From Streptomyces flavofungini (GTDB taxonomy: Bacteria; Actinomycetota; Actinomycetes; Streptomycetales; Streptomycetaceae), in contig NZ_CP128846.1 in NCBI RefSeq assembly GCF_030388665.1, positions 6,274,501 through 6,338,500 on the forward strand: 64,000 nucleotides of DNA. The letters run 5' to 3'. A program made the translations under genes and the position numbers. The notes below the pieces were generated by a model, which had not been told where the DNA came from, ran no database searches, and was given only the letters and a program-made list of their open reading frames with translations. Positions 9,725 through 41,495 of this stretch are shown here, one piece after another (within the stretch, counting starts at the first letter, position 1; each line of letters begins with the position of its first letter).

Positions 9725-9730
9725 CCGACG

Positions 9731-11889: not shown

Positions 11890-11895
11890 GCCCTC

Positions 11896-13158: not shown

Positions 13159-13227
13159 TGGCAGTGCAGAAGTCGCCGCGCGGCGAGTCCCTGACGAGGA
13201 GGTTGTGCAGGCCTTGAGGGCCGGCCC

Positions 13228-14337
<1,110 letters not shown>

Positions 14338-14349
14338 CGGAACAGCACC

Positions 14350-14847: not shown

Positions 14848-14851
14848 CGCC

Positions 14852-16159: not shown

Positions 16160-16512
16160 CCCCCTCCGAGCTCCGGGCGTTCTGCCTGTCCTTCAACGAC
16201 GCCGTCGAGGAGTTCCCCTTCCGGCCCGAGACGTCGGTGTTCAAGGTCGCGGGGAAGATGTTCGCGCTGTCCTCGCTGGACGCGGAGCCGCTGACCGTGA
16301 ACCTCAAGTGCGAGCCGGAGATCGCCCTCCGGCTGCGGGCCGCCCACCCCGAGATCGTGCCGGGCTGGCACATGAACAAACGCCACTGGAACACGGTGTC
16401 CCTGTCCGGGGACCTCCCCGACCGCCAGGTCCGCGAACTCATCGAGGACTCCTACGACCTGGTGGTGGCGGGGCTGCCCCGGGCGGTACGGCTGCGGCTC
16501 GACCGGCCCTAG
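16156..16512 (+). CDS. MmcQ/YjbR family DNA-binding-like protein
   Basis: A 118-residue small protein of the MmcQ/YjbR fold. It has the typical opening LRAFCLSFNDAVEEFPF, a central FKVAGKMFALSS strand pair, and WHMNKRHWNTVSL near residues 73-85. The fold resembles MotA-type double-wing DNA-binding domains, but the cellular role is unknown. Its ATG overlaps the upstream TGA (ATGA), making it the last gene of the phoH run. It converges on the MFS gene, with 19 bases between the two stop codons and no obvious terminator hairpin. Confidence 0.9.
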   Translation: MTPSELRAFCLSFNDAVEEFPFRPETSVFKVAGKMFALSSLDAEPLTVNLKCEPEIALRLRAAHPEIVPGWHMNKRHWNTVSLSGDLPDRQVRELIEDSYDLVVAGLPRAVRLRLDRP

Positions 16513-16531
16513 CGGGCCGGACGGGCCGGGG

Positions 16532-17584: not shown

Positions 17585-17755
17585 CCGCTCGTCGGCACCC
17601 TGCACGTGGAGTCCACCGCCCTGAGGGTGCCCGCGCGGCCCGACCTCACGATCGTGCTGCACACGCCGCTGCCGCTGGCCGACACCGCGGCGAAGCTCGC
17701 CTGGCTGGCCTCCCCGGAGGCGTGGCGCGGGGCGATGTACCGGGTGGCCGGTTAG
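17582..17755 (+). pseudogene. 3' remnant of an XRE/MmyB-type regulator
   Basis: The last 57 codons before a TAG read HPLVGTLHVESTALRV, then a segment with VLHTPLPLADTAAKL, then GAMYRVAG. This resembles the C-terminal end of the MmyB-like ligand-binding domain that follows an XRE helix-turn-helix in many streptomycete regulators. Upstream in the same frame the sequence is only the antisense of the MFS N terminus, so the DNA-binding part and most of the ligand domain are gone. The break coincides with the MFS start codon. Such regulators often sit divergent from efflux genes, so one deletion may have damaged both. Confidence 0.6.
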
Positions 17756-17779
17756 GCGGGCCCGCGGCCTCCTTATGCT
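17752..17779 (+). promoter_or_regulatory. Leaderless promoter of cytidine-deaminase-like gene
   Basis: TTAGGC (17752-17757) and TATGCT (17774-17779) have a 16-base spacer, and the -10 ends six bases before the ATG, so transcription should begin at the start codon. Confidence 0.55.
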
Positions 17780-17785
17780 CGTGCC

Positions 17786-18139
17786 ATGACTGAGCGCACC
17801 GACCTCGGCCCCGAGGACCAGAAGATCGTCACCCTCGCCCGCTCGGCCCGCGCCCGCAACGGCGTGCCGGAGGGCGCGGCGGTGCGGGACGAGACGGGGC
17901 GTACGTACGTCGCCGGGACGGTGTCCCTCGCCTCCCTGGAGCTGTCCGCCCTGCGCACGGCCGTGGCCATGGCCGTGGCGTCCGGCGCGGAGTCCCTGGA
18001 GGCGGCCGCGGTCGTCTCCGCCGCGGAGGCCCTGTCCGCGGAGGATCTGGCCGCGGTACGGGATCTGGGCGGGCCCGGGACGCCGGTGTTCCTGGCGGGC
18101 CCGGACGGGGCGGTCCGGCTGACGGCGGAGACGGCCTGA
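17786..18139 (+). CDS. Cytidine-deaminase-fold protein lacking zinc ligands
   Basis: A 117-residue protein in the position, directly before era, where streptomycetes have a gene annotated as cytidine deaminase. The fold pattern is recognisable (KIVTLARSARARNGVPEG, then VAGTVSLASLELSALRTAVAMAVASG). However, the active-site C/HAE motif is replaced by ELSAL and no PCxxC appears; the protein contains no Cys at all. It therefore cannot bind the catalytic zinc in the usual way and is probably not a deaminase. A structural or regulatory role beside Era is possible but unproven. Confidence 0.75.
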   Translation: MTERTDLGPEDQKIVTLARSARARNGVPEGAAVRDETGRTYVAGTVSLASLELSALRTAVAMAVASGAESLEAAAVVSAAEALSAEDLAAVRDLGGPGTPVFLAGPDGAVRLTAETA

Positions 18140-27691: not shown

Positions 27692-29212
27692 ATGGCCGCA
27701 CCCGCGACCCGCGTACCGGAAGGGGGAGCCGACGACGTGCCGTACCCGCCGTCCGACTCGCGCCCGTGGTGGCCGTTCGCCGGAGCCGTGCCCGGCACCC
27801 GGCGCGCCCTGCGGGAGGACGCGCTCCTCGCGGGCGCGCTCGCCGCCCTCGCCGTCGTCCTCGCCCACCTGATCAAGGACGGCAGGACGCCGGACGCGCT
27901 CGGCTGGACGCTCCTCGTGGGCGCCCACGTCCCCATGATCTGGCGCCGCAGCAGGCCGATGACGGCGATGCTCGCCACCATGGCCCTCGTCGGGCCGTAC
28001 CACGCCCTCGACTACACGCACGCCGCCGCGACCCACGTCGGCATGGTCGCCCTCTACTCCGTCGCCGTCTCCGGACGCCCCCGCCGCGCCCTCCTGACCG
28101 GCGTGCACATCATCGCGATCATGTTCATCGTCAACTCGGGCGTCGGCGGGGACCCGGCCACGGAGGTCGTGCGGATCGCGGGCTGGATCGTCGCCGTACT
28201 GATCTTCGGTACGTACGTCCGCGTCCACCGGCAGTACGTCGCCTCCGTCGTCGAACGCGCCGAGCGCGCGGAGCGCACCCGCGAGGAGGAGGCACGGCGG
28301 CGCGTCGCCGAGGAGCGCCTGCGGGTCGCCCGCGATCTGCACGACCTGCTCGCGCACAGCATCACCCTGGTCGGCGTGCAGACCTCGGTCGCCGCGCACG
28401 TCCTCGCCGCCGACCCCGACCGCCTCGACCGCGCCGCCATCGCGAGCGCACTCGACGACATCGCCGAGACCTGCCGCACCGCTCGCGGCGAACTCCGGGC
28501 CACCCTGGAGGTCCTGCGCACCGCGGGCCCCGGACCCGCCGACGCCCCCGACGAGTCCCGCGGCCCCCTGCCCGGCCTCGACGGCCTCGTCGACCTGGCC
28601 GACGCGGCCCGCACGGCGGGCGCGAAGGTCGACCTCGCCGTCACCCTCCCCGACCCGCCGGTGCCGCCCGCGGTGGGCGCGGCCGCGTACCGCATCGTCC
28701 AGGAGGCCCTGACCAACGCGGTCCGCCACGGCGGCCCCGGGCCGAGCGTGGCGGTGGGGATACGGGAGCAGGACGGGGAGCTGAGGGTGACGGTGAGGGA
28801 CGACGGGGGGCGGCTCGTGACGGGGGGACCAGGGGTGCCTTCGGGGGTGGCCGGGCGGGCTGGGGACGGGGGCGGTACGCCTGTCCCGGCCGTCTCGGCC
28901 GCTGGTGGTTCGGCGGGTGGCGGGGGCGCGGCCTCTGCCGGGGCCGCGCGGGTGGCGGGGAACGGGGGACCGCCGCCCGCGACCTGGGGCGTCGTCCCCC
29001 GCGACGGGGAGGCGGCCCCGGGGCGGGGAGGGACCGCGGCCGGAGCCGCGGCCCGGAGCGGGACCGGCGCCCCGGACGCGCCCGGGTTCGGGCTCATCGG
29101 GATGCGGGAGCGGGCCCGGAGCGTGGGCGGGACGCTGGAGGCGGGGCCGCGGACGGGCGCGGACCGGGGGTTCGAGGTGGTGGCCGTGCTGCCACTGGGT
29201 GAGGAGAGATGA
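27692..29212 (+). CDS. NarL-type sensor histidine kinase with long linker insert
   Basis: A 506-residue membrane sensor kinase. Four to five helices cover about residues 45-180; then the HisKA_3 dimerisation helix has the phospho-acceptor His217 in ARDLHDLLAHSITLVGVQ. The ATPase domain shows the N box EALTNAVRHG (about 340) and a DDGG D box (about 370), but the G box GFGLIGMRERARSVGG only appears near 466. Between them lie about 90 Gly/Ala/Pro-rich residues, whereas usual kinases have about 10-20. It overlaps the response regulator by ATGA. The signal is unknown. Confidence 0.9.
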   Translation: MAAPATRVPEGGADDVPYPPSDSRPWWPFAGAVPGTRRALREDALLAGALAALAVVLAHLIKDGRTPDALGWTLLVGAHVPMIWRRSRPMTAMLATMALVGPYHALDYTHAAATHVGMVALYSVAVSGRPRRALLTGVHIIAIMFIVNSGVGGDPATEVVRIAGWIVAVLIFGTYVRVHRQYVASVVERAERAERTREEEARRRVAEERLRVARDLHDLLAHSITLVGVQTSVAAHVLAADPDRLDRAAIASALDDIAETCRTARGELRATLEVLRTAGPGPADAPDESRGPLPGLDGLVDLADAARTAGAKVDLAVTLPDPPVPPAVGAAAYRIVQEALTNAVRHGGPGPSVAVGIREQDGELRVTVRDDGGRLVTGGPGVPSGVAGRAGDGGGTPVPAVSAAGGSAGGGGAASAGAARVAGNGGPPPATWGVVPRDGEAAPGRGGTAAGAAARSGTGAPDAPGFGLIGMRERARSVGGTLEAGPRTGADRGFEVVAVLPLGEER

Positions 29213-29895
29213 GCCGAGTGATCCGGGTACTGCTCGCCGACGACCAGGCGCTGGTGCGGGCGGCCTTCGCCATGCTCGTGGAGTCCGCACGGGACATGGA
29301 GGTCGTGGCGCAGGCCGGGTCCGGGCGTGAGGCCGTCGACCTGGCCCGCGCCGAGCGGGCCGACCTCGTCGTCATGGACGTGCGCATGCCCGACCTCGAC
29401 GGCATCGAGGCCACCCGCCTGATCGCCGCCGACGAGGACCTGGCGGGCGTGAAGGTCCTCATGCTCACCACGTACGACACCGATGAGCACGTGGTCGAGG
29501 CGCTGCGCGCGGGGGCGTCCGGCTTCCTGGTCAAGGACACCAAGCCCGCCGAGCTGCTCGACGCCATCCGTATCGTCTCCGCGGGGGAGTCGCTCCTGTC
29601 CCCGGGCCCCACAGGCCGCCTCATCGCCCGGGTGCTGCGCCAGCCGCAGGCCCCGCACGCCGAGGCACCGGTACCCGCCGCGCTCGGCGCGCTCTCCGAC
29701 CGCGAACGGCAGGTCCTGACGCTGGTCGCGCGCGGCCTGAACAACACCGAGGTGGCGGAGGCGCTGGGGCTCAGCCCGCTGACGGCGAAGACCCACGTCA
29801 GCCGCATCATGGGGAAGCTGGGGGCGCGGGACAGGGCGCAGCTGGTGATCGTGGGGTACGAGTCGGGGCTCGTGACACCGGGGTCGGCGGGCTGA
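29209..29895 (+). CDS. NarL/LuxR-type response regulator
   Basis: A 228-residue regulator with a receiver domain (about 4-120; DDQ at 12-14, phospho-Asp57 in VMDVRMPD, Lys in LVKDTKP near 108) and a C-terminal LuxR helix-turn-helix (about 160-225; LSDRERQVLTLVARGLNNTEVAEALGLS split around the turn). It is translationally coupled to the kinase. Likely targets are nearby membrane or resistance genes such as the MMPL transporter, by neighbourhood only. Confidence 0.94.
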   Translation: MSRVIRVLLADDQALVRAAFAMLVESARDMEVVAQAGSGREAVDLARAERADLVVMDVRMPDLDGIEATRLIAADEDLAGVKVLMLTTYDTDEHVVEALRAGASGFLVKDTKPAELLDAIRIVSAGESLLSPGPTGRLIARVLRQPQAPHAEAPVPAALGALSDRERQVLTLVARGLNNTEVAEALGLSPLTAKTHVSRIMGKLGARDRAQLVIVGYESGLVTPGSAG

Positions 29896-29958
29896 GGGCT
29901 CGGGGCCGGGGGCCTCGGCGGGGTGGCGGCCGGCGGCCTCGCGTGCCGACCCGTGCGC

Positions 29959-29976
29959 GGGCCCCGGCCGGGGCCC
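29959..29976 (+). terminator. Palindrome downstream of two-component genes
   Basis: GGGCCCCGGCCGGGGCCC is a perfect 18-base palindrome in a G/C-rich gap after the regulator gene, most simply a terminator. Confidence 0.5.
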
Positions 29977-30035
29977 GGAGCCCCGGTGGTGCGACGCCCT
30001 CCCGCAAGCCGCGGGCACCCGCCTGGAGACACCTC

Positions 30036-30076
30036 CGTCACTCCCCTGCGTCAACACAGCGTCAACTCCGTCGATG
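30036..30076 (+). repeat. Four CGTCA/CGTCG direct repeats upstream of sialidase promoter
   Basis: CGTCACT, CGTCAAC, CGTCAAC and CGTCGAT start at 30036, 30049, 30060 and 30069, roughly one helical turn apart and just upstream of the putative -35. The arrangement resembles tandem activator half-sites but matches no consensus I can name with certainty. Confidence 0.4.
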
Positions 30077-30086
30077 CGCAGGGGTA

Positions 30087-30115
30087 TTGTCGTACCGCCC
30101 GGGGCGCATTAGCTT
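30087..30115 (+). promoter_or_regulatory. Sialidase gene promoter
   Basis: TTGTCG (30087-30092) and TAGCTT (30110-30115) have a 17-base spacer. The start site would be near 30122, directly before the operator repeats. Confidence 0.6.
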
Positions 30116-30123
30116 CACGCGCG

Positions 30124-30144
30124 ACGTCCTACGTCCCACGTCCT
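30124..30144 (+). promoter_or_regulatory. Operator A: three tandem ACGTCCY repeats, with core TCCCACGTCC
   Basis: ACGTCCT ACGTCCC ACGTCCT in tandem. The core TCCCACGTCC (30134-30143) recurs exactly upstream of the ABC-importer operon (38602) and, inverted, upstream of the GntR gene (38761). It lies just downstream of the inferred transcription start, a repressing position. Confidence 0.7.
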
Positions 30145-30159
30145 GTCGTGAGGAGCCGT

Positions 30160-31497
30160 ATGAGCCGTACGAGCCGCGTGATCCAGAGACGACGTACACC
30201 CGTGCGGAGCAGTCCGCGCGACCGGGGCGGCGAGGGACACGAAGGCCTCGGGGGCTCGCGGGGCTTCAGAAGTCTCCGGGGTCTCCGGGGCCTCAGGGCC
30301 CTCAGGAGCCGCCGTCACCTCTCCGCCGCCGCTCTCACCCTCTCGGCCGCCCTCGCGCTCACCGCCTTCACGAGCCCGGGCGCCGCCCCCGCCCCCCTCC
30401 TCCCCGGCTGCTCCACCTCCGTGCCGTACACCGCCGACACCAACGGCTACGACACCTTCCGCATCCCCGCCGTCGTCCGCACCGACCGCGGCACCCTGCT
30501 CGCCTTCGCCGAGGGGCGGCGTGCCAGCGCCTCCGACACCGGCAACATCGACGTCGTCCTGCGGCGCTCCACCGACGGCGGCTGCACCTGGGGCCCCCTC
30601 GCCGTCGTCGCCGCGGGGCGGGGCGACACCCGCGGCAACCCGGCGCCCGTCGTCGACCCCGTCACCGGGCGCGTCGTGCTGCTCACCTCCTACAACAGCG
30701 GTGCCGTCACCGAGGGCCAGATCATGCGCGGCGAGGTCACGGCCGCGCAGAGCCGCCGCGCCTTCGTCCAGACCAGCGCGGACGACGGCCGTACGTTCTC
30801 CTCGCCGCGCGAGATCACGGCCGCCGTGAAGCGGGCCGACTGGCGGTGGTACGCGACGGGACCCGGGCACGCCGTCGCGCTGACCCGGGGGCCGTACGCC
30901 GGGCGGCTCGTCGTACCCGCCAACCACTCCGCCGCGCCCGCGCCCGGCTCCTCCGACACCGGGCAGGAGCCCAAGTACTACGGCGGGCACGCCCTCTACA
31001 GCGACGACCACGGGCTCAGCTGGCGCATCGGGTTCGTCGACGACACCTACGACGGTGAGCACAACTCCAACGAGTCCGCCTTCGCGCAGCTGCCCGACGG
31101 GCGGTTGTACCTCAGCTCTCGGGATCAGCACGGGGTGGCCGTGGGCAATCGGCTCGACAGCTACTCCAGCGACGGCGGGCGCAGCCTCGACCGGCCCTAC
31201 GCCGTTCAGCCCACCCTCGACGACGTGCCCGTCGTGCAGGGCGGGCTCCTTCAGCTCCGGGGGTGGGGGGATCCGCTGCTCTTCTCCGGGCCCTCCGTGC
31301 CCACCGCCCGGCAGGCGATGGCGCTGTGGCGGAGCCGGGACGGGGGGCGGTCCTTCGTCAAGGCGGTGACCCTGTCCCAGGACCGGGCCGGGTACTCGGA
31401 CTTGGTGCAGGTGGGGCCCGGGGTGGTCGGGGTTCTGTACGAGACGGGTGTGGCGGGGACGTACGAGCGGATCGCTTGGCGGCGGCTGGCGGTGTAG
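30160..31497 (+). CDS. Secreted exo-alpha-sialidase (GH33-like)
   Basis: Sialidases release terminal sialic acid from glycoconjugates. The 445-residue product has an Arg-rich N terminus (RSRRHLS) before a hydrophobic segment and an Ala-Pro-rich cleavage zone (about 50-80), so it is exported, possibly by Tat. The mature part has the FRIP Arg motif near residue 100 and five Asp-box repeats (STDGGCTW at 137, SADDGRTF near 205, SDDHGLSW near 281, a degenerate one near 337, SRDGGRSF near 392), giving a six-bladed propeller. The start was chosen for GTGAGGAG just upstream. It shares an operator word with the ABC importer operon and the GntR gene. Confidence 0.9.
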   Translation: MSRTSRVIQRRRTPVRSSPRDRGGEGHEGLGGSRGFRSLRGLRGLRALRSRRHLSAAALTLSAALALTAFTSPGAAPAPLLPGCSTSVPYTADTNGYDTFRIPAVVRTDRGTLLAFAEGRRASASDTGNIDVVLRRSTDGGCTWGPLAVVAAGRGDTRGNPAPVVDPVTGRVVLLTSYNSGAVTEGQIMRGEVTAAQSRRAFVQTSADDGRTFSSPREITAAVKRADWRWYATGPGHAVALTRGPYAGRLVVPANHSAAPAPGSSDTGQEPKYYGGHALYSDDHGLSWRIGFVDDTYDGEHNSNESAFAQLPDGRLYLSSRDQHGVAVGNRLDSYSSDGGRSLDRPYAVQPTLDDVPVVQGGLLQLRGWGDPLLFSGPSVPTARQAMALWRSRDGGRSFVKAVTLSQDRAGYSDLVQVGPGVVGVLYETGVAGTYERIAWRRLAV

Positions 31498-31519
31498 GTG
31501 CCCTGCGGGGCGTTCCCCG

Positions 31520-31770
31520 GTCCCGCCCCTTCCCGAAACCGGGGCTCCGCCCCTGGACCCCGGGGTGGGTGTCCCCTCCGGGTGGGCCGGGGGCGCCCCC
31601 GAAGTCGGCGCTTCGCGCCTCGTCCTCAATCGCCGGACGGGCTGAAAACTTCCCCGGGGCGGGCTGAAGGTGCCGGGCTGTTGCTCGGCCCCGGGGATGT
31701 CTGGGCGGGTGGGTGGGAGAGAGCCCGTCCGGCGTTTGAGGACGAGGCGCGGAGCGCCGATGCGGGGGCG
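31520..31770 (+). repeat. Dispersed intergenic palindrome, split copy
   Basis: The gap between the convergent sialidase and aldolase genes carries the same words as the 19.3-kb repeat: CGAAACCGGGGCTCCGCCCC, then CTCGTCCTCAATCGCCGGAC and the inverted partner CCGTCCGGCGTTTGAGGACG. The two core arms (31618-31643 and 31722-31747) are separated by about 78 bases of GC-rich DNA instead of six. It probably still terminates both genes. Confidence 0.8.
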
Positions 31771-31777
31771 CGGTGGG

Positions 31778-32722
31778 CTACAGGAGGCCGGCGGCGGCCA
31801 GGTGTTTGCCGACCTGTTCCGTCTCCGCCCCGGACAAGGGCACCTGCGGCGCCGCCGTCAGGGGGCAGTCGATGATGCCGCGCAGGTGCAGCGCGGCCTT
31901 GAACGCACCGAGCGCCGCGGAGCTGGCACCCATCCGGAGGGGATCGCCGACCCCCACCATGCGGTACAGCGCGCACAACCGTTCCTGCTCCGCCCGGGCC
32001 CGCTCCCAGTCGCCCGCGCGGGCGTAGCGGTAGAGGCGTACGTAGCCGTGCGGGTCGACGTTCCCGAGCCCGGGGACGACACCGTCGGCGCCCATGGCGA
32101 GGGCGGAGTCGACGGTGAGCTCGGAGCCGGTGAGGACGGCGAAGGAGGCCAGGCCGGCCCGGGCGCGGGAGCCGAGGACGACGCGCCGCAGACCGCCGTC
32201 GTCGCCGCTGGAGTCCTTGAGCCCGGCCAGCGCGCCGTCCGCGGCGAGTTCCAGCACCAGGTCGGCGTCGAGCTTGGTGTGGACGGAGACGGGGAGGTCG
32301 TAGGCGAAGACGGGCAGCGCTCCGCGCTCGGCGACGAGCCGGAAGTGCCGGGTGATCTCGGCGGGGTGGGTGCGGGTGTAGAAGGGGGCGGTGACGACGA
32401 CCCCGTCGGCCCCGGCGTCGGCGGCGGCCCGGACGTGGTCGAGGACGCGCAGGGTGGCCATGTCGATGGCCCCGGCGAGGACGGGCAACTGGCCGCCGAC
32501 GTACCGCACGACGCGGTCCACGACGGTCCTGCGCTGCCCGTCCGGCAGATACGCGGCCTCGGAGGACGAGCCGAGCACGAAGAGACCGTCGACGCCGCCG
32601 TCGATCAGATGGTCGACGAGGCGTTCCAGCGAGGCCACGTCCACCTCGTTGTCCGGGGTCAGGGGGGTGCAGACGGGAGGGACGACACCGGTCAACGGGG
32701 AGGGCAGGTGCGGCAGGGTCAC
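31778..32722 (-). CDS. DapA-superfamily aldolase, possible N-acetylneuraminate-lyase type
   Basis: A 314-residue class I aldolase of the DapA/NanA superfamily. The Schiff-base lysine is Lys169 in GLKDSSGD, the catalytic Tyr is Tyr141 in AYDLP, and the pyruvate-carboxylate loop is GSSSE at 51-55. Dihydrodipicolinate synthase has an Arg five residues after the Tyr; here that place is Ser, so lysine synthesis is unlikely. The context (sialidase, importer) suggests a sialic-acid or other 2-keto-3-deoxy sugar-acid lyase, but NanA usually has LKQTSG around the lysine, so the substrate is open. It starts at GTG with AAGGAG upstream, overlapping the ATPase stop by GTGA. Confidence 0.82.
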   Translation of the reverse strand: MTLPHLPSPLTGVVPPVCTPLTPDNEVDVASLERLVDHLIDGGVDGLFVLGSSSEAAYLPDGQRRTVVDRVVRYVGGQLPVLAGAIDMATLRVLDHVRAAADAGADGVVVTAPFYTRTHPAEITRHFRLVAERGALPVFAYDLPVSVHTKLDADLVLELAADGALAGLKDSSGDDGGLRRVVLGSRARAGLASFAVLTGSELTVDSALAMGADGVVPGLGNVDPHGYVRLYRYARAGDWERARAEQERLCALYRMVGVGDPLRMGASSAALGAFKAALHLRGIIDCPLTAAPQVPLSGAETEQVGKHLAAAGLL

Positions 32723-33810
32723 GGAGTCTCCTTGGGCGTGGCCGTGGCGGCGGCCGTCGCTGCGGACGACTGGCTGACGAGGTCCCGCGTGGACTCGCCC
32801 GCCAGTACGGGGTGGTGGCACCGGTACCGATGCTCGGCACCGGCGTCCGCGACGTCCGGCATGGCCGTCGCGCACACCTCGTCGGCCTTCCAGCACCGGG
32901 TGCGGAAGGGGCACCCGCTGGGCGGCCGGGTGGCCGACGGTACCGGGCCGACGAGCGGAATCGGGTCGATCGGGTCGAGCAGGCCGGGTGTGGCCGAGAA
33001 CAGCGCCCGGGTGTACGGGTGCCGGGCGTTGTCGAGGATCTCGGCGGCGGGCGACTCCTCGACGATCCGGCCGAGGTACATGGTGATGACGCGGTCGCTC
33101 ATCCTGCGGACCGTCTGGATGTCGTGGGAGACGAAGACCAGGGAGAGGCCCAGGCGTTCCTTCAGGTCCAGGAGCAGGTTGAGGATCTGGGCGCGTACGG
33201 AGACGTCGAGGGCGCTGGTCGGCTCGTCGGCGACGACGAGCTCCGGTTCGAGGGCGAGCGCGCGGGCGATGGCGACGCGCTGGCGCTGGCCGCCGGAGAG
33301 CTGTCCGGGCAGGGCCTCGGCGAGGACGGTGGGCAGGCCGACGAGGCTCATCAGCTCGCGCACCCGGTCGGTGCGCTCGGCGGGGGTGCCGCGGCGGTGC
33401 ACGTCGAGGGGGTCGCGCAGGATCTGCCGGATCGGCAGGCGGCGGTTGAGGGCCGTCGACGGGTCCTGGAAGATCATGGCGGTGCCGGTGCCGATGGTGG
33501 TGCGGCGCTCGGCGGCGCCCATCTGCCACAGGTCCCGGCCGCGGAACGCGACGACCCCGGACGTCGGCCGCTGGATGCCGAGGAGGACCTTGGCGAGGGT
33601 CGACTTGCCGCAGCCGGACTCGCCGACGACGCCGACGGTCTCGCCGGGGGCGATGGTGAGGTCGGCGCCGGTGAGGGCGTACACCCGGTCGCGGGAGAAC
33701 AGGCCGCCGGTGCGGGCCTTGTGGACGACGTGCGCGTCGCGCAGCGTGACCAGGGCGGCGGGGTCGTCGGCGGGCAGGTCGCCGGGGGGAACAGCCTCAG
33801 CCACGGTCAC
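32719..33810 (-). CDS. Oligopeptide/sugar-type ABC transporter ATPase (DppF/OppF-like)
   Basis: A 363-residue nucleotide-binding subunit of a Dpp/Opp-type importer. Walker A is GESGCGKST, the signature is LSGGQRQR, Walker B is LVVADEPTSALD, followed by the switch His in SHD. The C-terminal extension has the Cys-rich motif of Opp ATPases (GCPFRTRCWKADEVC), which can carry an Fe-S cluster. The start is a GTG that overlaps the preceding gene by 14 bases. It pairs with the ATPase half of the fused permease upstream. H. ducreyi imports sialic acid with a transporter of this class, a useful precedent. Confidence 0.9.
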   Translation of the reverse strand: MTVAEAVPPGDLPADDPAALVTLRDAHVVHKARTGGLFSRDRVYALTGADLTIAPGETVGVVGESGCGKSTLAKVLLGIQRPTSGVVAFRGRDLWQMGAAERRTTIGTGTAMIFQDPSTALNRRLPIRQILRDPLDVHRRGTPAERTDRVRELMSLVGLPTVLAEALPGQLSGGQRQRVAIARALALEPELVVADEPTSALDVSVRAQILNLLLDLKERLGLSLVFVSHDIQTVRRMSDRVITMYLGRIVEESPAAEILDNARHPYTRALFSATPGLLDPIDPIPLVGPVPSATRPPSGCPFRTRCWKADEVCATAMPDVADAGAEHRYRCHHPVLAGESTRDLVSQSSAATAAATATPKETP

Positions 33811-35839
33811 GGACCGCCTCGCTTCCTGGGAGCCGCGGCTCCGCGCTCTCGACGACGGGTGCGGGATGGTGACAGGCCGTCCGGTGCCGGTCCTCGCCGA
33901 GGAGTTCGGGGGCGGTGGTGTGGCACAGGCCGTCGGCGAGGGGGCACCGGTCGGCGAAGCGGCAGCCCGCGGGGAAGTCGGCCGGTGAGGGGACGACGCC
34001 CTTGATCTGGGTGAGCCTTCCCCGAGCTCTCGACTTCGCTCGACCAGGGGATGCCCCACTGGCGGCGGACTCCAGGGAGAGCACGGAGCCGAGCAGGCCG
34101 CGCGTGTAGTGGTGGGTGGGGGCCTCGACGAGGTCGGCGGTCACGCCGGTCTCGACGATCTGCCCGCCGTACATGACCGCGACCCGGTCGGTGACGTCGG
34201 CGACGAGCGCCAGGTCGTGCGAGACGAGGATCAGGGCGAAGCCCAGCTCGGCCCGCAGCCGCAGCAGGAGCTGGATGACCTGGGCCTGCACGGTCACGTC
34301 GAGCGCGGTGGTGGGCTCGTCGGCGACGATCAGCTTGGGGTCGCGGGACAGGGCCATGGCGATGAGGACGCGCTGGCGCTGGCCGCCGGACAGCTCATGC
34401 GGATAGCTGCGCAGGGTGCGGTCGGGGTCGAGGCCGACGAGGGTGAGGAGTTCGGCGGGGGAGCGGTGGCCGCCGCGCCGGACGACCTGCTTGAGCTGGG
34501 CGCGTACCGTCATCGCCGGGTTCAGGGAGGACAGGGCGTCCTGGTAGATCATCGCCATGTCGTGGCCGAGGAGCCGCCGCCTGGCCCGCATGGGCAGGCC
34601 GATCAGCTCCCGCCCGGCGAAGGTGACATGCCCGCGCACCCGGGCGCCCTTGGGCTGAAGGCCCATGACGGTGAGCGCGGTCAGGGACTTGCCGCAGCCG
34701 GACTCGCCGACGAGGCCGAGGACTTCGCCGGGCCGGACCTCGAAGCTGATGCCGTCCACGATGTCGACGCCGAAGTGCCGGTCGTCGAAGCCGATGGCGA
34801 GGTCCCGCACGCTGAGCACGGGCGGCCCCTCGGGCAGCGGCCGGGCCCGTGAGCGCAGCCGCGCCGCCGCCTCGGTCAGGCCGGGCAGCTCAAGGACCTC
34901 GCCGCTGCCCGGCTCGGGCGCCTCGACCGGGTCGTCCTTGCGCCCGGGGCCGGTGACGTCACGGCCGGACGGCGCGGCCCAGGCGTCGGAGACTCCTTCG
35001 GAGAGCACGTTCAGGGAGAGCACCGTCAGGAGCATCAGCAGGCCGGGGAAGACCGTCGCCCACCAGCCGCCGATGAGCACCATGTTCTTGCCGTCGGCGA
35101 TGACGCTGCCCCAGGACGGGTCGGGGGGCCGCACGCCCGCGCCGATGAACGACAGGGACGCCTCGAACACGATCGCCTCGGCGACCTGGACGGTGCAGAA
35201 CACCAGGACGGGGGCGGCGCAGTTGATGGCGACGTGCTTGATGACGATGTGCGGGGTGCGCGCGCCGATGACGCGTTCGGCGACCACATAGTCCTCGCCG
35301 TACTGGTCGAGGACGTTGGCGCGTACGACACGGGCGATGGGCGGGGTGAACAGGAAGGCGATGGCGCAGATCAGGACGGTGATGCCGCCGCCGAAGACGG
35401 CGACGAGGACGGCGGCGAGCGCGATGCCGGGGAACGCCATGACGACGTCCAGGCAGCGCATCAGCGTCTCGTCGACCGCCTTGCGGGAGGTCGCGGCGAC
35501 GGCGCCGATGATCGCGCCGACGATCAGCGCGAGCGTCGTCGCGCCCAGGCCGATGGCGAGCGACCAGCGCGCCCCGTACATCAGCCGGCTGAGGATGTCG
35601 CGGCCCAGGCTGTCCTGGCCCATCCAGTGCTCCGCGGAGGGGTGGCCGGTGCCGTCGACGAGGGTCTGCTGGTCGAGCGGGTCGTGCGGGGCGATGAGCG
35701 GGGCGAACAGGGCGACGAGGACGACGACGGCGACCACGCCGAGACAGATGCGGGAGAGCACCGGGAGCTTCGCGAGGGCCCGCAGCCGGATGCCGGGCAC
35801 GGCGAGGCGCTCGGTGAGTTTCTTGCGCGACTGGAGCAT
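33797..35839 (-). CDS. Fused ABC permease (DppC-like) and ATPase (DppD-like)
   Basis: A single 680-residue protein with two functions normally on separate chains. Residues 1-295 form a DppC-type permease: an N-terminal helix (about 30-50), GQDSLGRDILSRLMYGARWS, four to five more helices and the ATPase-coupling loop near ERVIGARTPHIVIKHV. A linker (about 300-345) leads to a DppD-type ATPase with GESGCGKSL, LSGGQRQR and VADEPTTALD, ending in the Cys-rich Opp motif (GCRFADRCPLADGLC). Its ATG overlaps the stop of the first permease gene. The reading frame is continuous across the linker, so this is a true fusion. Confidence 0.92.
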   Translation of the reverse strand: MLQSRKKLTERLAVPGIRLRALAKLPVLSRICLGVVAVVVLVALFAPLIAPHDPLDQQTLVDGTGHPSAEHWMGQDSLGRDILSRLMYGARWSLAIGLGATTLALIVGAIIGAVAATSRKAVDETLMRCLDVVMAFPGIALAAVLVAVFGGGITVLICAIAFLFTPPIARVVRANVLDQYGEDYVVAERVIGARTPHIVIKHVAINCAAPVLVFCTVQVAEAIVFEASLSFIGAGVRPPDPSWGSVIADGKNMVLIGGWWATVFPGLLMLLTVLSLNVLSEGVSDAWAAPSGRDVTGPGRKDDPVEAPEPGSGEVLELPGLTEAAARLRSRARPLPEGPPVLSVRDLAIGFDDRHFGVDIVDGISFEVRPGEVLGLVGESGCGKSLTALTVMGLQPKGARVRGHVTFAGRELIGLPMRARRRLLGHDMAMIYQDALSSLNPAMTVRAQLKQVVRRGGHRSPAELLTLVGLDPDRTLRSYPHELSGGQRQRVLIAMALSRDPKLIVADEPTTALDVTVQAQVIQLLLRLRAELGFALILVSHDLALVADVTDRVAVMYGGQIVETGVTADLVEAPTHHYTRGLLGSVLSLESAASGASPGRAKSRARGRLTQIKGVVPSPADFPAGCRFADRCPLADGLCHTTAPELLGEDRHRTACHHPAPVVESAEPRLPGSEAVRDRG

Positions 35840-36798
35840 CAGGAGGTTCCCCTCAGGCGCGGGTTCACCAGCAGGTAGAGGATGTCGATCACCAGGTTCA
35901 CCACGACGAAGCCGACGGCCGTGGTGATGACGACGCCCTGCACGACGGCCGGGTCACCGTTCTTCACCGCGTCGATCATGAGCTTGCCCATGCCGGGCAG
36001 CGAGAAGATCGTCTCGATGACGACCGCGCCGCCGAGGAGGTAGCCGACGCGCAGGCCGAGCACGGTCAGCGGATTGATGAGGGCGTTGCGCAGGACGTTG
36101 CGGCCGACCACCACGACCGGCGGCAGGCCGCTGCCGACGGCCGTGCGGACGTAGTCCTTGTCCAGCTCCTCCACCACGGCGGTGCGCACGATGCGGGTCA
36201 TCTGCGCGGCCACCGGCAGCGACAGGGCGAGGGCGGGCAGCGTCATCGTCTTCAGCCAGCCGGTGAAGGAGTCGGCCGGGTTGACGTAGCCGCCGGTCGG
36301 GAACCAGCCCAGGTCGACCGCCAGGTACTGGATCATGAGCAGGGCCAGCCAGAAGCCGGGCGCCGCGACGCCGGTCAGCGAGACCACGCGGATGATCTGG
36401 TCGGGAAGCCGGTCGCGGTAGATCGCGGCGAGCACGCCGAGGGGCAGGGAGAGCAGCACCGCGATGCCGAGGCCGAGGAAGGTCAGCTGCATCGTCAGGG
36501 GCAGCGCGGTGGTGATCTGGTCGATGACGGGGGACCTGGTCAGGACGCTGATGCCCATGTCGCCGCCGACGAGGTCGCCCACGAAGGCGACGTAGCGCAC
36601 CGGCAGCGGGTCGAGCAGGCCGTTGTCCTCGCGGAACTGGTGCAGCTGCTCCTGGGTGGGGTTCGCGCCCTGGTAGAACGCCGACGCCGGGTCGATGTCG
36701 GAGAACCGCATCACGAGGAACACGAAGAGCACGATGCCGAGCAGCAGCGGCACGAGCAGGGCGATACGGCGGGCCAGGATGCGCAGGATCGCGGTCAC
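35839..36798 (-). CDS. ABC transporter permease (DppB-like)
   Basis: A 319-residue inner-membrane permease with the usual six helices. It begins with ILARRIALLVPLLLGIVLFVF, contains the long periplasmic loop typical of DppB/OppB, and has the ATPase-coupling loop with ELDKDYVRTAVGSGLPP near residue 215. It starts at GTG 87 bases after the lipoprotein gene stop codon; three direct repeats lie in that gap. It overlaps the fusion gene start. Confidence 0.93.
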   Translation of the reverse strand: MTAILRILARRIALLVPLLLGIVLFVFLVMRFSDIDPASAFYQGANPTQEQLHQFREDNGLLDPLPVRYVAFVGDLVGGDMGISVLTRSPVIDQITTALPLTMQLTFLGLGIAVLLSLPLGVLAAIYRDRLPDQIIRVVSLTGVAAPGFWLALLMIQYLAVDLGWFPTGGYVNPADSFTGWLKTMTLPALALSLPVAAQMTRIVRTAVVEELDKDYVRTAVGSGLPPVVVVGRNVLRNALINPLTVLGLRVGYLLGGAVVIETIFSLPGMGKLMIDAVKNGDPAVVQGVVITTAVGFVVVNLVIDILYLLVNPRLRGTS

Positions 36799-36822
36799 TG
36801 CTCAACGCTCCTCTGGTTGCTC

Positions 36823-36878
36823 ACGGCGTACGGGCTCCTCATGGGCGTACCGGCTCCTCACGGGCGTACGGGCTGGTC
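36823..36878 (-). repeat. Three ~19-bp direct repeats between SBP and permease genes
   Basis: ACGGCGTACGGGCTCCTC, ATGGGCGTACCGGCTCCTC and ACGGGCGTACGGGCTGGTC in tandem on the + strand. They fill most of the gap in the importer operon and could set mRNA stability or relative expression of the lipoprotein. Confidence 0.75.
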
Positions 36879-36885
36879 ACGTCGG

Positions 36886-38523
36886 TCAGGCCCACTTGGC
36901 CTGGAGCAGGTTGATCCCGGGGTAGGGCTGGGCGCGGACGCCGGTGAGCTGCCTTGGGTCCCACGCCGTCATCAGCTCGTTGTGCACCACGGGGTACAGC
37001 ACGGCCTCCTCGGCGACGATGTCGATGTAGTCCTGCACCATCGTCTTCTTCTTGGTGGCGTCCGGCTCGCGTGTCGCCCGGTCCATGAGGCGGAACAACT
37101 CCTTGGCGCGGGCGTTCTTCGCCCAGCGGGCGTAACCCATCCACAGGTTGTCGGGCCCGTAGTTGTAATGCATGATCAGGTCGGCCTCGACGCCGAACTG
37201 GTTGGGGTTCGAGGCGGCGGCGACGACCTGGTAGTCCTTCTTCTGGTCCAGCTTGGTGAAGACGGCCGTGGTCTCCTGCGGGTCGAGCGTGGTCCGCACG
37301 CCGATCGCGTCCCAGGACGCCTTGATGGTGGGCAGGCAGTCGACGATCCAGCTGACGTTGACCGCCATGATGTTGATCTTGAGGTTGTCGACCCCGGCCT
37401 CCTTCAGGAGCGCCTTGGCCTTCTTCGGGTCGTAGCCGTAGACGGTCTTCGCCGGGCGGTAGGTCGGGTTGCCCTCGTTGAGGAAGGACGAGGCGGCCTT
37501 GCCGTGCCCCTTCAGGGCGACCTCGATCATCTTCTCCCGGTCGATGGCGTAGTGCAGCGCCTGGCGCACCCGCACGTCGTCGAACGGCTTGTGCGCGGTG
37601 TTGAACATCAGGAAGAGGTTGTTCATGCCGGCCCCGCCCTCGACCGTCATGCCGCCCTTCTTCAGCTGCTCGATGTTGGCGTACGGGATGTTGTCGGAGA
37701 TCTCGGCGTCCGCGCCGGCGCCGGAGATCTTCGCGACGCGCGGCGCCGCGTCGACGATCGTCAGCCAGTTCATCTTCTTGAAGGCGGCCTCGCGCGGACC
37801 GTTGTAGTCGGCGAAGGCCTCGAAGGTCGTGTTCGACTTCGGGTGGTGGGCGGTCTGCCGGTACGGGCCCGAGCCGATGGCCTTGCCCTTGGTGGCGTCG
37901 TCCCAGGCGCCCGGCCGGGAGTACACGTGCTTCGGCATGATCTTGGCGAGGGTGAGCCGGGCCGCGCCGTCGGGGAAGGGGAACTTCAGGACCAGCTCCA
38001 CGTTCCGCGCGTCGACCTTCCTGACCTCCTTCAGCCAGCTCGCGAAGAAGCCCTTGGCGAGGGTCTGCGTCTTCGGGTCGAGGATCCGGTCGAACACGAA
38101 CACCACGTCGTCGGCGGTGACGGGCTTGCCGTCGTGCCACTTGGCGCCCGCGCGCAGCTCGAACTTCCACGTCGTCGCCTTCAGGTCGGTGGGCACCGCC
38201 GTGGCGAGCTGGGCGTAGGGCTCCCTGCTGATCGGGTCGGTGCCGAGCAGCGCCTCGTAGATGTGCTCGTTGCCCGCCATCGCGAACGCCGACGCCGTCT
38301 GTGTGGGGTCCCAACTGCCGTCGTTGCCATAGCCGATGACGGCGGTCAGGGTGCCGCCGCTCTTGCCGCCGCCACCGGTGTCGTTCGTCGACTCAGGTCC
38401 CGAGCAGGCCGCGAGCGTGCCGGTGAGACCCGCCGCCGCGCCCAGGGCGCCGGTGTACTTGAGGAAGGACCGGCGGTCGGGGCCGTGCCCGCCGTCGCGC
38501 GTCACGGGGATCAGGTGGCTCAC
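36886..38523 (-). CDS. ABC transporter substrate-binding lipoprotein (DppA/OppA-like)
   Basis: A 545-residue extracytoplasmic solute-binding protein of the SBP_bac_5 family, the first gene of the importer operon. The signal combines a twin-arginine motif (DRRSFLKYTG, about residues 16-25) with a lipobox LAAC near 38-41, so it is probably a Tat-exported lipoprotein. The mature part has WKFELRAGAKWHDGKPVTADDV near residue 120, the family fingerprint. Family members bind peptides, nickel, glycans or sugar acids, so the ligand is not fixed by sequence. The GTG start has GGAGG four bases upstream. Confidence 0.92.
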   Translation of the reverse strand: MSHLIPVTRDGGHGPDRRSFLKYTGALGAAAGLTGTLAACSGPESTNDTGGGGKSGGTLTAVIGYGNDGSWDPTQTASAFAMAGNEHIYEALLGTDPISREPYAQLATAVPTDLKATTWKFELRAGAKWHDGKPVTADDVVFVFDRILDPKTQTLAKGFFASWLKEVRKVDARNVELVLKFPFPDGAARLTLAKIMPKHVYSRPGAWDDATKGKAIGSGPYRQTAHHPKSNTTFEAFADYNGPREAAFKKMNWLTIVDAAPRVAKISGAGADAEISDNIPYANIEQLKKGGMTVEGGAGMNNLFLMFNTAHKPFDDVRVRQALHYAIDREKMIEVALKGHGKAASSFLNEGNPTYRPAKTVYGYDPKKAKALLKEAGVDNLKINIMAVNVSWIVDCLPTIKASWDAIGVRTTLDPQETTAVFTKLDQKKDYQVVAAASNPNQFGVEADLIMHYNYGPDNLWMGYARWAKNARAKELFRLMDRATREPDATKKKTMVQDYIDIVAEEAVLYPVVHNELMTAWDPRQLTGVRAQPYPGINLLQAKWA

Positions 38524-38601
38524 AGTGCCTCCATGAAGGAGTGGGGAGGCCTGCTCCCCAAGTGCCGGGTGAGAGGGAGGTGCAGTGCTTCCGGTGGGAG
38601 A

Positions 38602-38611
38602 TCCCACGTCC
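38602..38611. promoter_or_regulatory. Operator B (TCCCACGTCC) upstream of importer operon
   Basis: The exact core of operator A, inside GATCCCACGTCCTACGTCG, about 15-25 bases downstream of the inferred start of the leftward operon. TGGGAGATCCCA forms a small palindrome overlapping it. Confidence 0.7.
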
Positions 38612-38631
38612 TACGTCGTGCTGGCGTGGCG

Positions 38632-38660
38632 ACCATAAGAGGGCCGCGAGTGCCGGTCAA
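38632..38660 (-). promoter_or_regulatory. Promoter of SBP-importer-aldolase operon
   Basis: Read leftward, TTGACC (38660-38655) and TATGGT (38637-38632) are 17 bases apart, the best-looking promoter in the window. Transcription would begin near 38625, immediately before operator B. Confidence 0.75.
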
Positions 38661-38760
38661 GAGAACGCGCACGGATCAGAACCCGCTGTTCCCGGATCGG
38701 AATTGAGTGGCCCTCAGCCCAGGTCGGCCGCGGCGCGCGCAGAAGTCTCGTCCGGAGGTG

Positions 38761-38789
38761 GGACGTGGGATGTCATCCGTGCCTACGAT
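38761..38789 (+). promoter_or_regulatory. Operator C and leaderless promoter of the GntR gene
   Basis: GGACGTGGGA (38761-38770) is the reverse complement of the shared core. TACGAT (38784-38789) lies seven bases before the ATG and acts as -10, so the operator covers the -35 region: a layout for autorepression. Confidence 0.7.
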
Positions 38790-38796
38790 GTGGCGC

Positions 38797-39549
38797 ATGC
38801 CTCAGGAGCCCATCCGTGAACGGCCCGGGCCCGCCCCAAGGCGGTCCGGTGAACGGCGTGTGAGCGGCCAGGTGCAGCGCGAGGTGACGCAGCTGATCCT
38901 GGACCGGCGGCTGCGCCCCGGCGCCCTGCTGCCCACCGAGGCCGAGCTGATGGAGGAGCTCGGCGTCAGCCGCAACTCCGTGCGCGAGGCCCTCAAGGCG
39001 CTGCAGGCCCTCGACATCGTGGAGATCAGGCACGGCTACGGCACCTACGTCGGCCAGGCCTCCCTGACCCCCCTCGCCGACGGCCTGACCTTCCGCACCC
39101 TGGTCCAGCTCGCCGACGACACGCACGCGCTCGCCGAGATCCTCCAGGTCCGGGCGGTCCTGGAGGAAGGTCTTGTGCGTGCGGTCGCGACCGTGCTCAC
39201 CGACGCCGAGCTGAGCGGCCTGGAGGACCTGGTGCGGCGGATGGAGGAGGCCGCGGCGGCCGGCGACGCCTTCCCCGATTTGGACCGCGAGTTCCACGAG
39301 GCGCTGTACAGGCCGCTCGGCAACACCCTGGTGACCCAGCTGCTCGGCGCGTTCTGGCACGTCTTCCACCGGGTCGCGGGCGTGCGCGGCTGGTCGCGGG
39401 ACCCGGCGCCCGACGTCACCGTACGCAGGCACCGCGACATAGTGGCGGCGCTGCGCGCGGGTGACGTGGGCGCCGCGCAGCGGGCGATGGCGGACCACTT
39501 CCGCGGCATCGAGGCGCGGGCGGGACAGGAATCGAGAGGCGTGGGATGA
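38797..39549 (+). CDS. FadR-subfamily GntR regulator of the sialidase/importer locus
   Basis: A 250-residue regulator with a winged helix (about 22-90; LLPTEAELMEELGVSRNSV, then VREALKALQALDIVEIRHGYGTYV) and an all-helical FCD effector domain (about 95-240; with D-REFH and H-RDIVAALRAGD-type metal/ligand positions). FadR-type regulators usually repress and are released by a sugar acid or organic acid. I chose the third in-frame ATG because TACGAT sits seven bases upstream and longer versions would be encoded by the operator. It overlaps the GH42 gene (ATGA). Shared operator words make it the likely repressor of the sialidase and importer genes. Confidence 0.9.
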   Translation: MPQEPIRERPGPAPRRSGERRVSGQVQREVTQLILDRRLRPGALLPTEAELMEELGVSRNSVREALKALQALDIVEIRHGYGTYVGQASLTPLADGLTFRTLVQLADDTHALAEILQVRAVLEEGLVRAVATVLTDAELSGLEDLVRRMEEAAAAGDAFPDLDREFHEALYRPLGNTLVTQLLGAFWHVFHRVAGVRGWSRDPAPDVTVRRHRDIVAALRAGDVGAAQRAMADHFRGIEARAGQESRGVG

Positions 39550-41495
39550 CCCCCGACGGCACTGGCGGCACCGACGGCGGCAGCGAGAGGAGTGATAGCG
39601 GCGGCGACCTGGACCGCTTCTACGACAGGCTGACCTCCCTCGCGTACGGCGGCGACTACAACCCCGAGCAGTGGGGCCCCGACGTGCACGCCGAGGACAT
39701 CGAGCTGATGCGCGCGGCGGGCGTGAACCTGGTGACGCTCGGCATCTTCGGCTGGGCCACCACCGAACCGACCCCCGGCGCCTACGACTTCACCTGGCTG
39801 GACGCCCACATGGACCGCCTCGCGGACGCGGGCGTCGCCGTCTGCCTGGCCACGATGACGGCGTCCCCGCCCCCCTGGCTGGCCCGCCTGCACCCCGAGA
39901 CCCTGCCCGTCATGGCGGACGGCACCCGCCTGCACCCCGGCTCCCGCCAGCACTGGTGCCCCTCCAGCCCCGTCTTCCGCGGCCACGCGGTGCGCCTGAC
40001 GGAACGCCTCGCCACCCGGTACGCGGACCATCCGGCGCTCGCCCTGTGGCACATCGGCAACGAGTACGGCTGCCACATCTCGCGGCACTGCCACTGCGAG
40101 GTCTCCACGGCGGCGTTCCGCGCCTGGCTGCGCGAGCGGTACGGGACGGTCGACGCGCTGAACGACGCCTGGTCGACGACGTTCTGGTCGCAGCGCTACA
40201 GCACCTGGGAGGAGATCCACACCCCGCGCGCGGCCCCCTCCTTCCGCAACCCGGCCCAGCGCGCGGACTTCCTCCGCTTCTCCTCCGACGAACTCCTCGC
40301 CTGCTACCTGGCCGAGAAGGACGTCCTCGCCCGCGTCACCCCGCGCACCCCCGTCACCACCAACTTCGTCCCCGTCGCCAAGACCCTCGACCTCTTCCGC
40401 TGGGCCCCGCACCTGGACGTCGTCTCGTACGACTCCTATCCCGACCCGCACGACCCGGACGCCGCCCAGCGCACCGCCTTCAGCTACGACGTGATGCGCG
40501 GCCTGAAGGCAGGGCAGCCCTGGCTGCTCCTCGAACAGGCCCCCTCCGCCGTCAACTGGCGCGCCCACAACGGCCGCAAGCCGCCCGGACGGATGCGCCT
40601 GGACAGCTGGCAGGCCGTGGCGCACGGCGCGGACGCGGTGCTGTTCTTCCAGTGGCGCCAGTCGCGCGGCGGCGCCGAGAAGTTCCACTCGGCGATGGTG
40701 CCGCACGCGGGCCCGCAGACCCGCACGTTCCGCGAGGTGACGGCGCTGGGCGCCGAACTCGCCGCGCAGCCCGACCTGTTGAGGTCACGGCCGGAGCGGG
40801 CGGACGCGGCGCTCGTCCTGGACTGGCCCAACTGGTGGGCCCTGGAGACGGACGCGCACCCGAGCGAGGTGGACTACCTGGACGGGGCGCTCGCCCTCCA
40901 CAAGCCGCTGTACGACGCGTCGGTGGCGTGCGACGTGGTGCCGGTCGACGGGGACCTCGCGGCGTACCGGCTGCTGCTCGTGCCGCACCTGTACTCCCTG
41001 TCGCCGGACACGGCCGCGCGCCTCACCGCCTACGTGCGCGACGGCGGCACGCTCGTCGTGTCGTACTTCTCCGGCATCACCGACGAGCACGACCGCGTGC
41101 ACCTCGGCGGCTATCCGGGGCCGCTGCGCGAGGTCCTCGGCCTGACCGTCGAGGAGTTCGACCCGCGCCCCGACGGCGGCTGGGCGGAGGAGATCCGCCT
41201 GGAGGGTGCCGAGCGGATCCTCGCGTACGAGGACGGGGGCGGCCCCGCCGTCACCCGGCACGACTACGGCGGGGGCACCGCCTGGTACCTGGGCCTGCGC
41301 CCCGACGCCGAGACGATGCGCGAACTGCTCGACCGGGTGCGGGCGGAGGCCGGGGTGGAGCCCGTGGTGGCGGGGCTCCCGGAGGGCGTGCAGGTGCGGA
41401 CGCGGGTGACGGCGGCGGGGGAGAGGGCCCTGGTGCGCCTCGATCACCGGGACGGTTCGGTGACGGTCGAGCGCGACCAGGCCTCCCGGCAGTAG
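39546..41495 (+). CDS. GH42 beta-galactosidase, C terminus shortened
   Basis: A 649-residue glycoside hydrolase family 42 enzyme without signal peptide, so cytosolic. It removes terminal beta-galactose. The barrel begins with YGGDYNPEQW; the acid/base is Glu173 in GNEYGCH, the nucleophile Glu330 in LLLEQAPSAVNW, and a zinc-type Cys cluster (CHISRHCHC) follows Glu173. The trimerisation domain is present. The final C domain consists of only its first strand (ALVRLDH) and the frame then ends inside the antisense of the neighbouring gene, so about 40 residues appear lost. It is coupled to the GntR gene. Confidence 0.92.
   Translation: MTPDGTGGTDGGSERSDSGGDLDRFYDRLTSLAYGGDYNPEQWGPDVHAEDIELMRAAGVNLVTLGIFGWATTEPTPGAYDFTWLDAHMDRLADAGVAVCLATMTASPPPWLARLHPETLPVMADGTRLHPGSRQHWCPSSPVFRGHAVRLTERLATRYADHPALALWHIGNEYGCHISRHCHCEVSTAAFRAWLRERYGTVDALNDAWSTTFWSQRYSTWEEIHTPRAAPSFRNPAQRADFLRFSSDELLACYLAEKDVLARVTPRTPVTTNFVPVAKTLDLFRWAPHLDVVSYDSYPDPHDPDAAQRTAFSYDVMRGLKAGQPWLLLEQAPSAVNWRAHNGRKPPGRMRLDSWQAVAHGADAVLFFQWRQSRGGAEKFHSAMVPHAGPQTRTFREVTALGAELAAQPDLLRSRPERADAALVLDWPNWWALETDAHPSEVDYLDGALALHKPLYDASVACDVVPVDGDLAAYRLLLVPHLYSLSPDTAARLTAYVRDGGTLVVSYFSGITDEHDRVHLGGYPGPLREVLGLTVEEFDPRPDGGWAEEIRLEGAERILAYEDGGGPAVTRHDYGGGTAWYLGLRPDAETMRELLDRVRAEAGVEPVVAGLPEGVQVRTRVTAAGERALVRLDHRDGSVTVERDQASRQ

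Follow-up and report, generated by a model that had tools for sequence, protein, structure and literature searches.

In a 64,000-nucleotide stretch of the Streptomyces flavofungini genome (contig NZ_CP128846.1, positions 6,274,501 to 6,338,500 of the forward strand; hereafter the window, in which coordinates are counted unless stated otherwise), the genes between positions 30,036 and 41,495 probably form a regulon for scavenging nonulosonic acids under a NanR-like repressor, with the deaminated sialic acid Kdn as the most likely sugar and the teichulosonic acid of cell walls perhaps as its source. The shared operator and the gene set are well supported as real by sequence comparison; from these we infer binding, repression, an inducer, Kdn as the substrate and the wall as its origin.

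An operator shared by three promoters

An earlier note, made from the DNA alone, had proposed that a 10-base word, TCCCACGTCC, marks the promoters of a sialidase gene, an importer operon and a GntR-type regulator gene. The word is found exactly where that note had placed it, at 30134 (+), 38602 (+) and 38761 (-). As a bare 10-mer it is common, with 10 matches in the window against 11.4 expected when one mismatch is allowed, and with 23 exact copies in the genome as compared to 20 for a reversed-pattern control; it was thus dropped as evidence. The 14-base extension RTCCYACGTCCYAC, on the other hand, matches the 9.36 Mb genome exactly at three positions only, each of them within this locus (with one mismatch allowed, 6 positions match, as compared to 12 for the control). 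The genome-wide count that the earlier note had called for thus went against the 10-mer and in favor of the 14-mer.

A longer operator has the word as its core and AYRT half-sites that recur with a period of 7 bp (GACAT-CCY-ACGT-CCY-AYGTC); adjacent units form a GT-N3-AC core, which we take to be that of FadR-type GntR proteins. The sialidase operator (30123..30142, +), with three AYRT half-sites, reads GACGT-CCT-ACGT-CCC-ACGTC and sits between the ATG at 30160 and a probable promoter, TTGTCG-17-TAGCTT (30087..30115, +), which was recognized by eye and was not returned by a sigma-70 consensus scan. The operator of the importer-aldolase operon (38599..38617, -; AGAT-CCC-ACGT-CCT-ACGTC when read on the + strand) lies just downstream of the promoter TTGACC-17-TATGGT (38632..38660, -), the only match of that scan in 29900-39200 (shuffles gave a mean of 0.2). 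The regulator operator (38755..38774, +; AGGT-GGG-ACGT-GGG-ATGTC) covers the -35 position of a gene whose probably leaderless start at 38797 was read by eye. In the importer and regulator operators, the first unit departs from AYRT.

Behind these sites are a secreted GH33-type sialidase, probably a Kdnase (30160..31497, +; Pfam BNR_2, E 2.7e-40; R199); a SatA-like substrate-binding lipoprotein with a GTG start (36886..38523, -; SBP_bac_5), a SatB-like permease (35839..36798, -; BPD_transp_1), a SatC-like permease-ATPase fusion (33797..35839, -; BPD_transp_1 and ABC_tran in one open reading frame), a SatD-like ATPase (32719..33804, -; ABC_tran and oligo_HPY) and an aldolase of the DHDPS/NAL family, the presumed nonulosonate lyase (31778..32719, -; Pfam DHDPS); and the NanR-like regulator, probably autoregulated (38797..39549, +), which combines GntR DNA-binding and FCD effector domains (Pfam). 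A GH42 beta-galactosidase gene (39546..41495, +; Glyco_hydro_42, E 3e-154) overlaps the regulator stop with its start (ATGA). For each of these genes, Pfam agrees with the content assigned in the earlier note.

Conservation and genome-wide specificity of the operator

A contig scan with the regulator identified 51 loci, of which 38 were from Streptomyces at 66-98% identity (best segment); with 20 further loci added and one duplicate dropped (L157, which equals L088), 57 loci were compared. L157 was excluded from the site, ladder and gene-presence counts and kept in the sialidase and aldolase residue counts. The importer and aldolase genes are each present at an identity of at least 60% in 52-53 of the 57 loci and the sialidase gene, at the same threshold, in 40, several contigs stopping inside the locus. 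The GH42 gene, which the earlier note had made part of the set, is present in only 17 of the 57 orthologous loci; it is accessory and was rejected as a core member.

With up to two mismatches to RTCCYACGTCCYAC allowed and the window included, a site was found at the importer promoter in 53 of 54 relatives (shuffles 0.5%; missing in L096), at the regulator promoter in 52 of 58 (shuffles 0.3%; missing in L085, L097, L152-L154 and L163) and at the sialidase promoter in 23 of 41 (shuffles 1.8%). The site is thus kept at orthologues, as the earlier note had asked to be checked, and the proposal of one operator shared by three promoters is backed by this retention together with the uniqueness of the 14-mer. 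Comparison of sequences likewise supports a regulon composed of sialidase, SatABCD-like importer, aldolase and regulator, as predicted. A reduced variant was observed in L152-L154, where the regulator (67-69% identity) is accompanied by one sialidase with a perfect operator before it and where no importer or aldolase homologue was found in the regions; in L152, the sialidase also has a laminin-G-like domain.

A stricter pattern, RTCCNACGTCCYAYNT, was then applied to whole genomes. Among 295 Streptomyces genomes, 55 were regulator-positive (at least 62% identity; this includes a partial match in G248, and three of the genomes are <90% complete), and 50 of these 55 hold 78 matches between them, as compared to 5 for the reversed control. 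Judged from coordinates, 69 of these 78 fall within the locus, which leaves nine at seven places. At two of these places (L200, L202) the pattern precedes a second sialidase that is approximately 41% identical to that of the window; at a third (L201) it separates a NanR paralogue from the aldolase of a NanE-containing cluster; and at the remaining four (single matches in G014, G101 and G122, and a repeat in G091) the tests made brought out no link. In G091, near position 4752 of L205, the 7-bp unit TCCTACG forms a tandem run away from the locus.

The comparison set consisted of 55 hand-picked genomes without a regulator match of at least 62%, 20 of them with no match and 35 with a weaker paralogue (approx. 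45-52% where listed). Eighteen of these genomes contain a total of 20 matches (the control gave 2), of which 17 are located at most approximately 450 bp upstream of an aligned start, that of an importer gene in 6 cases and of a sialidase in 11. The pattern thus found the system without being told its location; because the comparison set contains genomes with the system, it cannot serve as a clean negative. All importer and aldolase genes are present where the match precedes the importer gene (six cases), and five of these cases also have the locus sialidase.

A 7-bp ladder at NanR-type regulators

The best NCBIfam model for the regulator is NanR PRK03837, at 126 bits and thus below the cut-off of 260. 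For comparison, we took 20 NanE regions from other streptomycetes; L125, L128 and L134 among them have no homologue of the locus. In the others, within the reach of each region, homologues are 29-32% identical to the window proteins for the sialidase, 58-63% for the aldolase (74% in one 42-aa piece), 37-45% for the binding protein (the 45% coming from a 189-aa piece) and 40-50% for the regulator. The CCY-spaced 14-mer, within one mismatch, is absent from the 20 NanE regions, except for one stray match in L125.

A more general feature was found when ladders were defined by AYRT units within one deviation, a demand for three perfect units having proved too strict (6 of 18 NanE-linked and 14 of 54 focal loci). 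Under this rule a period-7 ladder occurs at all 18 NanE-linked regulators tested, mostly with CTG/CAG spacers (0 of 360 shuffles), and in 53 of 54 loci of the focal clade (3 of 1080 shuffles). One of the 18, L201, had been found via its match to the pattern; with L201 set aside, the ladder is present at 17 of 17. Periods of 5, 6, 8 and 10 gave no ladder and a period of 9 gave one, at a focal locus. The Propionibacterium locus L106 also carries the period-7 ladder, which was not seen at five Amycolatopsis/Actinomadura regulators or at the 47% identical paralogue of this genome. That paralogue (L111, G000:C1:5910000-5929999, 9508-10221) stands beside a GlxA/galactose-oxidase-like gene and a gene for a cellulose-synthase-like glycosyltransferase. 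In L201, the NanR paralogue near 10956 is 48% identical, and the cluster also contains an alpha-L-fucosidase gene.

Escherichia coli NanR, like the regulator described here, is a GntR/FCD regulator of sialic-acid genes with a short operator unit tandemly repeated at fixed spacing, and three of its dimers are reported to bind to an array of three tandem repeats (PMC8012715). By analogy, binding in Streptomyces may also be cooperative. The two differ in the unit, which is (GGTATA)3 in E. coli and AYRT at 7 bp here, as well as in the low NanR score of the window regulator.

Missing epimerases and known nan clusters

Searches for NanE (PF04131) and for N-acetylglucosamine (GlcNAc) 2-epimerase (PF07221) found neither in the genome, and both families were found in control genomes. 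Without one of these enzymes, we know of no route for N-acetylmannosamine (ManNAc) derived from N-acetylneuraminic acid (Neu5Ac). The ordinary Neu5Ac pathway was thus demoted; neither the canonical cluster of nanA, nanK and nanE nor the Bacteroidetes-type GlcNAc/ManNAc 2-epimerase pathway is found here. Across the 295 Streptomyces genomes, NanE exceeds the cut-off in 45, representing 8 of the 55 regulator-positive genomes and 37 of the 240 others, which indicates that the presence of the locus is not tied to that of NanE.

Catabolism of sialic acid by streptomycetes has already been described for nanA/nanK/nanE clusters (Li and Huang 2022, PMC8754123). These clusters resemble the locus in having a fadR-type regulator, an ST3 importer, nanA and sometimes a sialidase; the available parts of that paper describe no operators, and its survey is of clusters in which nanA, nanK and nanE lie within 10 open reading frames, so that this NanE-less locus would be left out of the count. 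The suggestion in the earlier note that the pathway might be undescribed in streptomycetes therefore does not hold for sialic-acid catabolism as such. The open-access literature, within which the search was conducted (subscription papers and RegPrecise lay outside it), gave no account of this operator or of a Streptomyces regulon for Kdn catabolism.

Sialidase, importer and aldolase as indicators of the sugar

By alignment, position 199 of the window sialidase is an Arg at the R171 position of the Aspergillus fumigatus Kdnase. The same residue is present in 41 of 41 further locus sialidases (L157 duplicating L088), in the three variants, by pattern in all of the 120 closest homologues (best 120 of 6899) and in 14 of 14 operator-preceded sialidases of the second type (L152 being counted also among the variants). 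NanE-linked sialidases, on the other hand, have Leu in 12 of 12 cases. Among solved structures, Arg is found in A. fumigatus Kdnase (2xcy) and in 7p1b, presumably a fungal Kdnase and the closest solved structure when only residues 80-270 of the window protein are compared; in chain 4m4v of the A. fumigatus enzyme, the Arg is changed to Leu. The R171L exchange, as it is said to be numbered, was reportedly aimed at shifting the preference of the A. fumigatus enzyme away from Kdn. Leu is also the residue in NedA of Micromonospora (1eur), solved with Neu5Ac-type ligands. The fungal Kdnases (2xcy and 4m4n from A. fumigatus; 7p1b) thus share the Arg with the window sialidase but are not singled out by whole-length sequence or fold similarity, and Kdnase activity is here a prediction; a fold search, tried as a discriminator, did not separate Kdnase from other sialidases. 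A sialidase with 71-72% identity is present in S. avermitilis.

The best solved relatives of the binding protein are 5za4, 5z99 and 5yyb (E 3e-101), of which 5z99 is Haemophilus ducreyi SatA (PMC10017367, PMC11364026), reported to bind Neu5Ac (PMC10017367). The comparison thus supports the transport precedent in H. ducreyi that the earlier note had cited, and the SatABCD (ST3) system of that organism has the same composition of binding protein, permease, permease-ATPase fusion and ATPase. Unlike in SatA, where a His, probably His333, is said to contact the carboxylate (PMC11364026), the aligned residue is Val390 in the window protein and Val in its clade; Asn or Thr takes this place in the NanE-linked proteins of streptomycetes and His in the Propionibacterium protein, so that the site does not tell the two streptomycete systems apart. 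The aldolase is closest, among solved proteins, to 5c54, a "dihydrodipicolinate synthase/N-acetylneuraminate lyase" (E 4e-89) that we take to be the Corynebacterium glutamicum lyase. Its residues, also tried as a substrate discriminator, did not discriminate. A Kdn-specific bacterial lyase is reported to exist in Sphingobacterium (PMC10017367).

The cell wall as a possible source

The main decoration of streptomycete walls is described as teichulosonic acid, a polymer built from galactose and Kdn (PMC11481543, PMC7831098), and NeuB was found in 279 of the 295 Streptomyces genomes. In S. flavofungini itself, a separate region (L198, G000:C1:3546000-3565900, 9352-18132) encodes NeuB, a cytidylyltransferase-HAD fusion, a glycosyltransferase, an alpha-2,8-polysialyltransferase-family protein, a 566-aa BNR protein and a ricin-type lectin. 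The fusion shows weak similarity to KdsC and KDN-9-phosphatase, below the cut-offs of those models, and the NeuB matches both the NeuB and the PseI models, each below cut-off. As NeuB, the fusion and the polysialyltransferase-family protein are neighbors, this is probably a nonulosonate polymer locus and the strain probably makes its own polymer. Feeding on walls and turnover of its own wall would both fit the regulon; GH42 would suit the galactose, accessory as it is.

Neighboring genes

A histidine kinase and a LuxR-type response regulator are encoded directly upstream of the sialidase gene (27692-29895), and a homologue of the response regulator is present in 35 of the 57 loci. Further downstream, at 43470-47255, is a large SARP/AfsR-like regulator of 1261 aa (BTAD, NB-ARC, TPR).

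Proposed mechanism and rival explanations

We propose that regulator dimers would sit on the 7-bp AYRT ladder and block three promoters, i.e., those of the sialidase, the importer-aldolase operon and the regulator (with or without GH42), and that the freed sugar or a product of it would lift repression. The sialidase would clip terminal nonulosonic acid, the ABC importer would take up the sugar and the aldolase would split it into pyruvate and a hexose; from Kdn, the products would be pyruvate and mannose, needing neither NanK nor NanE. The likely source of Kdn would be the Kdn-galactose teichulosonic acid of streptomycete walls. The fullest form of this proposal is that Streptomyces has a dedicated Kdn regulon (NanR-like repressor, Kdnase, Sat-type importer and Kdn lyase) harvesting the teichulosonic acid of its own or its neighbors' walls, with a 7-bp-ladder operator common to the streptomycete, perhaps the actinobacterial, NanR family; we advance it tentatively, being slightly more inclined to doubt than to accept it in its entirety.

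Several observations weigh against the Kdn regulon as proposed. At the level of sites, 23 of the 53 importer sites carry two mismatches, the L067 importer site lies at the regulator end and may not be an importer site, and no sialidase site was found within a fixed upstream span in 18 of 41 loci, of which two have sites outside that span (further upstream in L064 and nearby in L160). As to the enzymes, the best solved match of the full-length sialidase is Streptococcus pneumoniae NanA, and Foldseek places NEU1, NanA and NedA before A. fumigatus Kdnase (rank 48; model mean pLDDT 70.5); the Arg/Leu comparison covers few characterized sialidases; and, at the identity to NanE-linked NanA proteins given above, the aldolase differs from them consistently at 6 columns only and thus bears no Kdn signature. 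NanE is present elsewhere in the eight regulator-positive genomes mentioned, and Kdn of the wall can lie inside the chain (Promicromonospora, PMC6801904), in which case an exo-enzyme would reach only the chain end. Moreover, a CCY-type operator precedes the lyase of the NanE-containing cluster L201 (genome G289), so that NanE-less loci are not the only ones with an operator of this type. Finally, in L226-L231 an importer operon with the operator has no regulator match within approximately 10 kb; the regulator must there lie elsewhere or differ.

As an alternative, the same regulon and operator could serve Neu5Ac from sialylated glycans, with ManNAc used via an unrecognized enzyme or only the pyruvate half being used. 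The homology of importer, aldolase and regulator to NanE-linked nan clusters, the ladder common to both sets of regulators, the CCY form in L201 and the binding of Neu5Ac by H. ducreyi SatA all agree with this explanation. We consider it, and with it the ordinary sialic acid assumed as substrate in the earlier note, unlikely, as the genome lacks NanE and GlcNAc 2-epimerase in the searches made, NanE over cut-off is lacking in 47 of the 55 regulator-positive genomes, and Arg, as in Kdnases, stands in the sialidase in place of Leu. Another bacterial nonulosonic acid (legionaminic, pseudaminic or a modified Kdn) would be compatible with the wide occurrence of NeuB and the sub-threshold matches of the strain's own NeuB to two models, but the published wall sugar of streptomycetes, in the sources available, is Kdn and the sialidase Arg matches that of Kdnases; we give this reading little weight.

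With respect to the regulator, the six genomes of L226-L231 could indicate that the operator belongs to a protein other than its neighbor. This is again quite improbable, since in 52 of 58 loci the neighboring regulator has the site before its own gene as well and since L152-L154, which have kept only regulator and sialidase, still have it before the sialidase. That the shared word is a product of chance, as the frequency of the bare 10-mer might suggest, is hardly credible in view of the 14-mer uniqueness, the conserved promoter sites and the specificity of RTCCNACGTCCYAYNT.

Implications

With the ladder, a clade of streptomycete regulators gains an operator that is defined by sequence and can be tested, and two look-alike systems are set apart, i.e., the NanE-containing Neu5Ac clusters and the NanE-less set described here. 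If the sugar is Kdn, the regulon would represent a degradation route for the major streptomycete wall glycopolymer, for which no catabolic pathway was seen in the open-access literature searched, and a generic "exo-alpha-sialidase" annotation would become a specific prediction in many genomes.

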